From: Cyanobacteria bacterium M_DeepCast_200m_mx_001
Lineage (GTDB): Bacteria > Cyanobacteriota > Cyanobacteriia > PCC-6307 > Cyanobiaceae
NCBI GenBank assembly: GCA_016882415.1
Contig: VGQL01000007.1
Coordinates: 1-37,416, forward strand
Length of the DNA stretch: 37,416 bases
Direction: 5' to 3'
Position numbers and translations under genes: made by a program. Below, piece after piece: positions 29,293-32,956 of this stretch. The notes under the pieces are model-generated. The model was not told the origin of the DNA. It saw only the letters and a program-made list of their open reading frames with translations, and did no database searches. Position 1 is the first letter of the stretch. Each line of letters opens with the position of its first letter.

Positions 29293-30975
29293 TCAGGATT
29301 TGCGTTCGGGGTCGCCCACGGCCCAGATCTCACGGCCGCTGGTGGCGGCCAGGCTGAGGGCACCGGGCTCAACGCCGTAGCCATAGGGCTCGTGCACCAG
29401 GGGTGCTTCCCCGTGCCAGTTCTCCACCGGGGGTGGGGAGGTGGTGAGCCATTCGGGGGTGAGGGCGTTCCAGGGGTTGTCGCCCGCCGGTTCGCCGCGG
29501 AAGGCGCTCAGCACCACATTCACCAGGAAGGGCAGGGTGCTGATGGCCATCAGCAGGGCCCCAACACTGCTCACCTGGTTGATCAGCTCGAATTGCGGGT
29601 CGTATTCCGCCACCCGGCGGGGCATGCCGTTCAGCCCCATCCAGTGCTGGGGTGCAAAGCAGAGGTTGAAGCCCACAAAGGTGAGCAGCACATGCAAACG
29701 GCCCAGCGGTTCGTTCATCAACCGACCCGTGACCTTCGGGTACCAGTGGTAAATCGAGGCGAAGATCACGAACACCGTGCCGCCATAGACGATGTAGTGG
29801 AAATGGCCCACCACGAAGTAGGTGTCGTGCACATGGATGTCGAAGGGCACCTGGGCCAGGGCCACCCCGGTGATGCCGCCGAACACGAAATTGAGGATGA
29901 ACCCGCAGGAGAACAGCATGGCGCTGTTGAGGGCGATCTTTCCGCCCCACAGGGTGGCCAGCCAATTGAAGAACTTGATGCCGGTGGGTACGGCGATGAA
30001 GGCGGTGGCGATCGTGAAGAACAGCCGCATCCAGGGGGGGGTGCCACTGGTGAACATGTGGTGCGCCCACACGATCAAACCCAGGAACACGATGCCCATG
30101 ATCGAGTACACCATCGTGGTGTAGCCGAACAGGGGTTTGCGGGCGTGCACTGGCAGGATTTCACTCACCAGGCCGAAGGCCGGCAGCACCATGATGTACA
30201 CCGCCGGGTGTGAATAGAACCAGAACAGGTGCTGGTACACCACGGCATTGCCCCCCAAGGCCGGGTTGAAGAAGCCGGTGTGGGCAATGATGTCGAAGCT
30301 GAGCAGCACCAGGGTGCCCGCCAGCACCGGGGTGGAGAGCACCACCAGGATGCTGGTGCCGAGCATCGCCCAGCAGTACATGGGCAGCTGCATCAGCTTC
30401 AGCCCGGGGCGCCGCAGTTTGAGAATCGTGGCGATGAAATTGATGCCCCCGAAGATGGAGCTGCCCCCCAGCAGCAACACGCTGAGGATCCAGATGATCT
30501 GGCCCGTGGCGGGGGTGGTGAGGCTCAGGGGTGGGTAGGCGGTCCAGCCGGATTGGGCCGCACTGGCGATGAAGTAGCTGCTGATCAAGAGCAATCCCGC
30601 CGGGGGGATCAACCAGAAGGCCACGGCGTTAAGGCGCGGGAAGGCCATGTCCCGGGCGCCCACATAAAAGGGGATCAGGTAGTTGCCGAAGGCCCCATTC
30701 ACCACCGGCACGATCCACAGGAAAATCATCACCGTGCCGTGCAGGGTGAGCACCTCGTTGTAGGTCTCCCGCGGCAGAAAATCGGAGATCGGCGTCAGCA
30801 GCTCGGTGCGGATCGCCCCCGCCAGGGCACCCCCCACCAAATAGAAGATGAAGCTGCACACCAGGTACTGCAGCCCGATCACCTTGTGGTCGGTGCTGAA
30901 GCTGAGGTAACGCAACCAACCCTGGGGTTGCAGCGGTGCGGCGGTGGGGCTCGCCGAGGGGAGCGTCAGGGTCAT
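29293..30975 (-). CDS. ctaD: Cytochrome c oxidase subunit I
   Basis: 560 residues, 12 TM helices. Heme and CuB ligands are visible: LHGTVMIFLW (low-spin heme His), YQHLFWFYSHPAVYI (CuB His and the cross-linked Tyr), WAHHMFTSG (CuB His pair) and VHDTYFVVGHFHYIVYGG (heme a3 and heme a His). The terminal O2 reduction site of the aa3 oxidase. Its ATG overlaps the ctaC stop (ATGA). C-terminal tail of about 50 residues beyond the last helix is Pro/Glu-rich. Confidence 0.97.
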   Translation of the reverse strand: MTLTLPSASPTAAPLQPQGWLRYLSFSTDHKVIGLQYLVCSFIFYLVGGALAGAIRTELLTPISDFLPRETYNEVLTLHGTVMIFLWIVPVVNGAFGNYLIPFYVGARDMAFPRLNAVAFWLIPPAGLLLISSYFIASAAQSGWTAYPPLSLTTPATGQIIWILSVLLLGGSSIFGGINFIATILKLRRPGLKLMQLPMYCWAMLGTSILVVLSTPVLAGTLVLLSFDIIAHTGFFNPALGGNAVVYQHLFWFYSHPAVYIMVLPAFGLVSEILPVHARKPLFGYTTMVYSIMGIVFLGLIVWAHHMFTSGTPPWMRLFFTIATAFIAVPTGIKFFNWLATLWGGKIALNSAMLFSCGFILNFVFGGITGVALAQVPFDIHVHDTYFVVGHFHYIVYGGTVFVIFASIYHWYPKVTGRLMNEPLGRLHVLLTFVGFNLCFAPQHWMGLNGMPRRVAEYDPQFELINQVSSVGALLMAISTLPFLVNVVLSAFRGEPAGDNPWNALTPEWLTTSPPPVENWHGEAPLVHEPYGYGVEPGALSLAATSGREIWAVGDPERKS

Positions 30976-31811
30976 GACTGAACGGCGGTGGGGGCTTCAG
31001 GGCTGGCGGCCGGGCTGTTCTGGGCCACCCAGTCGGCAAAGGTCTGGGGCTCCTCCACCACCACCGTGGAGCGCATGCCGCCGTGGTAAGGGCCGCACAG
31101 CTCGGCGCAGACGATCGGGTAACGGCCGGGGCGGGTGGCGGTGAAGCTGAGCAGGGTGGGTTGGCCTGGGATCACGTCCTGTTTGAGGCGAAACTGCGGC
31201 ACCCAGAAGGCATGGATCACATCGTTGGCCTTCATGGTGAGGGCCACGGGCTGCCCCAGGGGCACGTGCAGTTCCCCGGCCGTGATGCCCGCCTCCGGGT
31301 AGTGGAAGATGAAGGCGAACTGCATCGCCGTCACATCGATCGGCAGCGGTGCACTCTCCCCTTCGCCGACCTGGGCCACCGGGCTGATGCCGGCCCAGGT
31401 GCGCCCATCGGCGGGCTCGCTGTGCATGGCATGCATGCTGTGGTCATTGAGCGGGGCCATGCCGCCCATGCGGTCGTAGATGTCGTAGCTGTAAATCCCC
31501 ACGAACAGCACCACCACGGCGGGGATGGCTGTCCAGAGGATTTCCAGCGGCAGATTGCCTTCGATGGCAACGCCGTCACCGCTGTCGCCACTGACACGGC
31601 GAAAGCGCACCAGGCTGTAAACAATCAATCCGGCAATGCCGATCAGCAGGATCGTGCCAATGCTGAAGAGAACCTTGAAGAGTTCGTCGTAAACCGGTGC
31701 GTTGAGGCTGGCGTCCTCGGGCAGCAGATTGATGTTTTGACCCACCCAGAGCCCTGTCAGGACAAGGGCCATGCCGGCCAGGAGGGTAAGGATGGCGGCG
31801 GGAATCCGCAT
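30972..31811 (-). CDS. ctaC: Cytochrome c oxidase subunit II
   Basis: 279 residues. Signal/TM at about 5-25, TM at 45-68 and 88-108, then a periplasmic/lumenal cupredoxin domain. The CuA ligands are H200 (DVIHAFWVPQ), C235, E237, C239, H243 and M246 in CAELCGPYHGGM. The first loop after the third helix is rich in Met and His (RMGGMAPLNDHSMHAMH, 114-130). It accepts electrons from cytochrome c6 or plastocyanin. First gene of ctaCDE, divergent from ctaA across 206 bp. Confidence 0.96.
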   Translation of the reverse strand: MRIPAAILTLLAGMALVLTGLWVGQNINLLPEDASLNAPVYDELFKVLFSIGTILLIGIAGLIVYSLVRFRRVSGDSGDGVAIEGNLPLEILWTAIPAVVVLFVGIYSYDIYDRMGGMAPLNDHSMHAMHSEPADGRTWAGISPVAQVGEGESAPLPIDVTAMQFAFIFHYPEAGITAGELHVPLGQPVALTMKANDVIHAFWVPQFRLKQDVIPGQPTLLSFTATRPGRYPIVCAELCGPYHGGMRSTVVVEEPQTFADWVAQNSPAASPEAPTAVQS

Positions 31812-31833
31812 GGGACCCGATGCTGATCACCGC

Positions 31834-31839
31834 ACGCTA
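31834..31839 (-). promoter_or_regulatory. Candidate -10 (TAGCGT) of ctaCDE inside a TAGCGTGCG box
   Basis: Minus strand CCCTAGCGTGCGG, 23 nt before the ctaC ATG. Mirror copy lies before ctaA. Confidence 0.4.
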
Positions 31840-31985
31840 GGGAGAAGCATCGCCGCCGGTGCGCGCTTGTCGCCGGTTGCAGCAATCGCGGCCCTTGGGG
31901 TGTGGGATTGCTCACCGAAAGATCACTGTTGGTATCGCTGACGCCCCTCTCGCCACCGCCGTTCACCCAAGTCGAATCCCCTCGT

Positions 31986-31991
31986 TAGCGT
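31986..31991 (+). promoter_or_regulatory. Candidate -10 (TAGCGT) of ctaA-ctaB inside a TAGCGTGCG box
   Basis: CGTTAGCGTGCGACC, 26 nt before the ctaA ATG; with TTCACC 18 nt upstream. GTAGGAGCGGCCC before the start holds a possible Shine-Dalgarno (AGGAG). Confidence 0.45.
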
Positions 31992-32017
31992 GCGACCAGT
32001 CGCGGTAGGAGCGGCCC

Positions 32018-32956
32018 ATGACGAGCATCGGACTGGGTTCAGCGACGCCGCTGCGCGCACGGCTGGCGGCCCTCAGCGCCCACCTGCTGGTGGCCCTGGT
32101 GGCCCTGGTGGCGATCGGTGGGGCCACCCGGGTGATGGAGGCTGGGCTGGCCTGCCCCGATTGGCCGCTCTGTTACGGCTCCCTGCTGCCCGGCCGGCAG
32201 ATGAACTTGCAGGTGTTCCTGGAGTGGTTCCACCGCCTGGATGCCTTTGTGGTGGGGGTGGGCCTGGTGGTGCTGGCGGCCGTGAGTTGCTGGTGCCGGC
32301 GCCAGCTGCCGGCGCTGGTGCCCGCCCTGAGCCTCGCCGCGGTGGCCCTGGTGGCCCTGCAGGGAACCCTGGGGGCCCTCACGGTCACGTTGCTGCTCCC
32401 GTTTTCGGTGGTCACCGCCCACCTGGTGACGGCCCTGCTGCTGGTGGCCCTGCTCAGTGCCTGCACCCAGGCCCTGTGGCTGGCGCCCCGGCAGGCGACC
32501 CCCGCCCCAACGGCTCCCCAGGGGTTGGCGTCCGCGTGGCCATGGCTCACGGCCGGGGTGGCGCTGCTGGTGCTGCTGCAGTGTGCCCTCGGGGGCCTGA
32601 TGGCCAGCCAGTGGGCGGCGGGTTCCTGCCTCGCCTCCGGTGACGGCTGCGGCTGGTTGTGGGCCCATCGCCTCGGCGCCCGGGGGGCAGGCCTGGCGGT
32701 GCTGGCCCTGGCGGGGGGCGGTTTGTGGTGGCGCCCGCAGGAGCGCCCCCTGGCGGCCCTGGCGGCAGCCCTGGTGCTGGGGCAGATCGCCCTGGGGGTT
32801 GTGGCCCTGCGCCTCAGCCTCAGCGTGCCCGCCGTCACCGTGGCCCATCAGATCGGTGCCGCCCTGCTGGTGGCCGTGCTGGCCGCCCTGGTGGTGCGCA
32901 GCCGCCCCATCGCTGGCCCGGCTGGTCCGATCCTTCGCCTTCAAGCCCATGGTTAG
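32018..32956 (+). CDS. ctaA: Heme A synthase (COX15/CtaA)
   Basis: 312 residues, eight TM helices in two halves. It oxidises heme O to heme A. The heme-binding histidines are visible: [11 protein letters not shown] (E-x2-HR), [11 protein letters not shown] in the first half and [23 protein letters not shown] in the second. A conserved Cys pair sits in [17 protein letters not shown] lies before the ATG. Divergent from ctaCDE. Overlaps ctaB by eight bases. Confidence 0.93.

Follow-up and report, generated by a model that had tools for sequence, protein, structure and literature searches.

In the window analysed here, a stretch of 37,416 nucleotides from Cyanobacteria bacterium M_DeepCast_200m_mx_001 (contig VGQL01000007.1), two mirror-image boxes lie between ctaC and ctaA. 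The explanation that we favour, and regard as probable from the comparison of related loci, is that these boxes are the -10 elements of two divergent promoters, that their match to each other is coincidental, and that a palindrome located between them is the site of a shared activator. A sequence-only reading had proposed, as one of two options, that the boxes themselves keep the oxidase subunits and heme A synthesis in step; shared control of the two is still likely, not through the boxes but through the palindrome at 31900-31915.

The ctaC-ctaA locus and the loci compared

The host is a picocyanobacterium, and the closest relatives that protein similarity revealed are other picocyanobacteria, recorded as Cyanobium, Synechococcaceae, Vulcanococcus and Synechococcus. 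The host's ctaC and ctaA are divergent and separated by an intergenic region of 206 nt, with oxidase subunits I and III encoded behind ctaC and a UbiA-family protein (ctaB-like) encoded behind ctaA:

30972..31811, minus strand: ctaC, cytochrome c oxidase subunit II (COX2 and COX2_TM matches; CoxB over its cut-off)
32007..32011, plus strand: AGGAG, likely ribosome-binding site of ctaA, judged from the sequence (GTAGGAG is kept in L084 and L085)
32018..32956, plus strand: ctaA, heme A synthase (COX15-CtaA, E 7.2e-34)

The ctaA gene is present in 24 of 25 genus genomes and in 280 of the 300 family genomes sampled. A single in-frame TGA lies inside the ctaA match in three genomes (G153, G168 and G193). 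In eight loci (L145, L148, L150, L151, L158, L199, L210 and L222), ctaC was not found in the approximately 800 nt before ctaA, and the divergent pair may there be split or farther apart.

The intergenic alignment comprises 22 genomes of the same genus (L083-L104), the more diverged L105 and L106 being left out. Eighty further loci of the family were taken mostly by best score, so that they are biased towards near relatives; without the eight of these 80 that have no ctaC before ctaA, and together with L105 and L106, they form the 74 loci outside the 22. The set of 96 loci referred to below includes the 22 and shares some strains with a set of 44 loci from another collection.

The boxes as probable -10 elements

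As had been noticed from the sequence, the boxes are exact inverted copies, CGCACGCTA at 31831-31839 and TAGCGTGCG at 31986-31994, the first lying 20-28 nt upstream of ctaC and the second 24-32 nt upstream of ctaA, in a nearly symmetric arrangement. The first six bases of each form the predicted -10 element:

31834..31839, minus strand: TAGCGT, putative -10 element of the ctaC promoter, in the first box
31986..31991, plus strand: TAGCGT, putative -10 element of the ctaA promoter, in the second box

All 22 genus genomes keep the T, A and T of TANNNT at both boxes, and the third base is G in 21/22 and 20/22; a hexamer of this form kept between relatives, the mark of a cyanobacterial -10 element, is thus found on both sides. 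The mean column conservation of the hexamers (0.894 and 0.833) can be compared with 0.678 for the whole intergenic region over the same genomes. On the ctaC side, CATANNNT occurs at most 60 nt from the gene in 92 of the 96 loci, against 2.5% of shuffles, and within the same distance in 34 of the 44 loci of the other collection (partly the same strains), against 5.6% of shuffles; the window itself carries CCTAGCGT there, not CATANNNT. The earlier suggestion that the boxes could be -10 elements is supported by the invariant T, A and T and by the recurrence of CATANNNT near ctaC.

Mapped promoters of S. elongatus are reported to have the -10 motif --Ta-aaT and to lack a strong -35 (PMC3219970). 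The boxes resemble such cyanobacterial sigma-70-type elements (TAN3T, --Ta-aaT) in that both open with TANNNT shortly before the genes, and the ctaC and ctaA promoters resemble those of S. elongatus in the absence of a conserved -35. They differ in that TAGCGT is G+C-rich and that the start sites are predictions from the sequence alone. Because the invariance of TANNNT and the recurrence of CATANNNT are accompanied by this S. elongatus-like form without a conserved -35, each box is predicted to be the -10 element of one of two divergent promoters.

No conserved -35 was found across the 22: when the best -35-like hexamer is taken at 16-19 nt, it agrees with TTGACA at a mean of 2.3 positions at both promoters, against 2.5 in shuffles. 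Since the -35 is not conserved, both promoters may need an activator. This dependence is not certain, given a -35-like TTCACC (4 of 6 matches) placed 18 nt before the ctaA -10 in the window and in L084, alone among the 22. A consensus promoter scan gave no match, but promoters of this kind would escape it, as TAGCGT shares only 3 of its 6 bases with TATAAT.

A conserved palindrome between the promoters

Three blocks were compared between the boxes:

31900..31915, no strand: palindrome GTGTGGGATTGCTCAC in the centre (consensus of the genus, GTGnGGGATTGCnCAC), proposed as a shared activator site on the basis of its conservation and helical-turn spacing
31877..31887, no strand: conserved block TTGCAGCAATC, lying from the palindrome towards ctaC, which may be a second site (conservation over 31869-31888 averages 0.789)
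31922..31940, no strand: block ATCACTGTTGGTATCGCTG on the ctaA side of the palindrome, which most of the genus retains in recognisable form and one clade has replaced

The palindrome, with a column mean of 0.864 over 31899-31916, is the best conserved of the three and exceeds even the ctaA hexamer, while the ATCACTGTTGGTATCGCTG block (0.684) is about as conserved as the intergenic region as a whole. In L096, L097 and L102-L104, where about 10 nt are inserted between this side block and the palindrome, TTGCAGCAATC or a variant of it keeps its distance to the ctaC -10, and this block may be a ctaC-specific element.

Exact matches to GTGNGGGAWTGCNCACC number eight over the 25 genomes, seven of them at ctaC-ctaA, and a reversed control gave none; the eighth lies inside a stop-free frame of 319 codons. 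When up to two mismatches in the palindrome were allowed, 12 of the 30 loci looked at, out of a larger number of hits, were at ctaC-ctaA and 18 elsewhere. All of these 18, and also 6 of the 12 copies at ctaC-ctaA, fall in stop-free spans 159 codons long or longer, and therefore such spans do not separate coding from intergenic matches. This check not being discriminating, and the first -35 scan being blind to these promoters, we slightly lowered our confidence both in the favoured explanation and, by a similarly small step, in the more specific reading of a locus-specific activator discussed below.

The search for an RNA family in the intergenic region returned one match, at 13.2 bits against a cut-off of 45 (E 3.9), plasmid records gave no match, and no literature on a ctaC-ctaA palindrome was found, as judged by titles and abstracts. 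Five loci (L204, L206, L209, L211 and L218) apparently carry two GTG-N10-CAC-like motifs in one intergenic region, the better-scoring of which is 37.5 bp from the ctaA -10.

Spacing of the palindrome in helical turns

Each distance is that between the centre of the palindrome and the first T of the -10 element. In the 22 genus genomes, the ctaC -10 lies at 67.5-69.5 bp in 17 and at 78.5-79.5 bp in five, and the ctaA -10 at 57.5 bp in eight, at 78.5-79.5 bp in 11 and at 89.5 bp in three. The spacing classes differ by about one or two helical turns, with an equal phase on both sides.

For the 74 loci outside the 22, a motif was called strong at a score of at least 16.9, which 0.36% of shuffles reach, using a scoring matrix made by hand after the sequences had been read; 26 loci have a strong motif and 48 do not. 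Seven of the 26, which carry two other genus labels, fit the spacing (ctaC at 67.5-69.5 or 77.5-78.5 bp, ctaA at 67.5 or 77.5-78.5 bp), and four have no assigned ctaA -10. In the remaining 15, the site stands 30.5 bp (L159, L162, L168, L188, L191, L203, L207 and L208) or 22.5 bp (L169, L173, L175, L179, L196, L212 and L213) from the ctaA -10, and the distances to ctaC have no common phase (R 0.317). As far as their sequences indicate, these near-ctaA loci represent a second architecture, in which the same kind of motif stands near the ctaA -10 and not at a far upstream position.

The six class centres of the genus and the seven fitting loci are in phase with one another at a period of 10.5 bp (R 0.979, a value that 12 of 200000 random phase sets attain), and 531 of 200000 such sets reach the common phase of the ctaA side alone; both figures are post hoc, as the far-site class was defined after the distances had been seen. 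Among the periods tried, the phase values peak at 10.5-10.75 bp. The weak motifs of L105 and L106, of the same genus, fit on the ctaC side (47.5 bp) and do not fit on the ctaA side (127.5 and 104.5 bp).

In the marine relatives, TGTCAG was found in 34 rows, five of which (L015, L055, L068, L168 and L188) were set aside by eye as unlike the marine element. In 25 of the other 29 rows, which include related strains that are not independent, it lies 66.5-69.5 bp from the ctaA -10, and in two at 78.5 bp; the distance is 43.5 bp in L040 and also in L032, where it was measured to a probable decoy. The distances to ctaC range from 57.5 to 136.5 bp, and share a phase only weakly (R 0.514 for 11 distinct values). 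In the marine loci, the tighter constraint is thus on the ctaA side. No equivalence of TGTCAG with the GTG palindrome is implied.

Steps of whole helical turns, of the kind expected for class I-type activation, are seen in the 22 genus genomes and the seven further loci and are absent from L105 and L106 on the ctaA side, from the near-site loci and from the marine ctaC side; the pattern, recognised post hoc, is suggestive and not universal.

A putative shared activator and its rivals

According to the explanation that we favour, the ctaC promoter would serve ctaC and then ctaD and ctaE, and the ctaA promoter ctaA and then ctaB. One dimeric activator would bind the palindrome GTGnGGGATTGCnCAC, roughly midway between the promoters, and contact RNA polymerase at both on one face of the helix, which would raise heme A synthesis together with the oxidase subunits. 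Because the spacing changes in steps of helical turns with the same phase on both sides, the comparison suggests, post hoc, one face-specific activator for both genes. If the first -10 base is placed at -12, the window's site is centred near -80 for ctaC and near -90 for ctaA. Class I positions of CRP are usually near -61.5, -72.5, -82.5 and -92.5, and face-specific activators usually show a pattern of far sites, near -70 to -100, in helical-turn steps. That a protein binds the palindrome, and activates rather than represses, we infer from these spacings and sequences.

We put forward only tentatively the more specific proposal that the activator on GTGnGGGATTGCnCAC would be previously undescribed and locus-specific, or nearly so, and would couple oxidase and heme A synthesis in picocyanobacteria by acting on both promoters from one helix face, its spacing evolving by whole turns in one architecture and the site having moved next to ctaA in another.

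The regulator could also be a known one, and the form of the favoured explanation that names RpaA, the output regulator of the clock, is possible but doubtful. A review table lists ctaAB and ctaCDE among the RpaA targets of Synechococcus elongatus PCC 7942 (PMC13421787), and cytochrome c oxidase genes are placed in the Early dusk cluster (PMC5785211); the same two operons are thus listed under one regulator there. The RpaA link of PCC 7942 is a reported one, whereas the palindrome described here is known from sequence; no RpaA motif for comparison was found in the literature consulted. The palindrome is inverted, unlike the direct repeat that the same review gives for the RpaB motif HLR1 (PMC13421787), and the near absence of exact palindrome matches elsewhere in the genus would be odd for a global regulator.

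CRP-family proteins may be further candidates, the genus genomes having 3-6 Crp-type helix-turn-helix matches each. The arrangement resembles cyanobacterial CRP/NtcA-type promoters in combining a dimer-type palindrome with a TAN3T box, which in CRP-activated cyanobacterial genes is reported to follow the site at about 22 bp (PMC2633013); the 30.5-bp class likewise leaves 22 bp between the motif and the TA of the -10, whereas the window's own site is far upstream. As these sites are given in the sources, the palindrome, GTGnG-N6-CnCAC in the alignment, lacks the half-sites of the CRP site TGTGA-N6-TCACA (PMC2633013), and its GTG and CAC, 10 bp apart, do not form the NtcA site GTA-N8-TAC (PMC3898017). 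The ctaA named in PMC4182526 is, in that source, a copper ATPase and not heme A synthase.

We consider it rather unlikely that the palindrome serves as the operator of a repressor or has a structural role, with a spacing kept constant by ancestry and few indels rather than by activation. The 15 strong-motif loci in which the site lies at 22.5 or 30.5 bp, so near the ctaA -10 that a bound protein could block polymerase, and the small number of independent spacing changes speak for it, but far sites in helical-turn steps are typical of face-specific activators and the -35 is not conserved, both of which argue for activation.

The nine-base match of the boxes

Beyond the hexamers, the boxes extend into three further bases, to which the sequence-only reading had given an extra meaning:

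31831..31833, minus strand: GCG tail in the first box, lacking conservation (its columns average 0.545, those of the intergenic region 0.678; GCG in 3/22)
31992..31994, plus strand: GCG tail in the second box, likewise lacking conservation (its columns average 0.621; GCG in the window only among the 22)

These frequencies do not support such a meaning of the tails; the middle tail base on the ctaA side is A in 19 of the 22 genomes and C in the window. A shared operator would keep the whole 9-mer at both places. All nine bases agree between the boxes in one genome of the 22, that of the window, and the hexamers are identical in none of the 33 loci of another collection in which both were found. 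Alignment of the intergenic regions, proposed earlier as a check, shows that the tails vary even in the two nearest relatives, whose boxes are TAGCCTGCG and TAGCGTGAT (88% CtaA identity) and TAGCGTGCG and TAGCGTGCC (82%). A shared operator formed by the 9-mers was therefore rejected on its conservation across relatives.

The search for the 9-mer elsewhere, also proposed earlier, had a divided outcome. This genome assembly (1.18 Mb, approximately 63% complete) contains just the two copies at the locus, while 62 of the 65 copies in the 25 genus genomes lie elsewhere and three at ctaC-ctaA (two in the window and one in G006). As an inverted repeat, the pair shows no excess over chance by shuffles of the 206-nt intergenic region: at least one exact inverted 9-mer pair arises in 301 of 3000 dinucleotide shuffles (10%). 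Over the whole window, inverted 9-mer pairs at most 165 nt apart number 103, against a mean of 77 (58-98) in 20 shuffles, and the box with at most one mismatch occurs six times, against 7.1 expected.

The tails do co-vary within genomes (agreement of 36, against 23.4 in shuffled pairings, none of 10000 of which attained it). Of the tail positions, the first was mapped on the tree, and there the split between the sides corresponds to one branch, that of the T_C clade of eight genomes (support 100/99), which has T on the ctaC side and C on the ctaA side, together with one change in L104. The excess at this position thus appears to be essentially one event, and, on the mapping of position 1 only, we take the co-variation as probable shared ancestry rather than the trace of a paired operator. 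That the TAGCGTGCG boxes form a pair of operators through which one regulator covers both promoters, as their exact nine-base identity, near-symmetric placement, confinement to this locus in the incomplete assembly and co-varying tails would allow, is very improbable in view of the identity in one genome of 22, the ctaA-side GCG seen in the window only, the single branch behind the tail split, the lack of identical hexamers in the other collection and the frequency of such pairs in shuffles. The nine-base match of the boxes is a coincidence of this genome.

Implications for picocyanobacterial respiration

The boxes themselves are ordinary, and the palindrome is the better candidate for shared control. 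If the palindrome is indeed a shared activator site, its natural series of spacings (57.5, 67.5, 78.5 and 89.5 bp) would make face-of-helix activation in cyanobacteria directly testable, and it would be a single switch keeping the oxidase and its heme cofactor in step in these abundant phototrophs.
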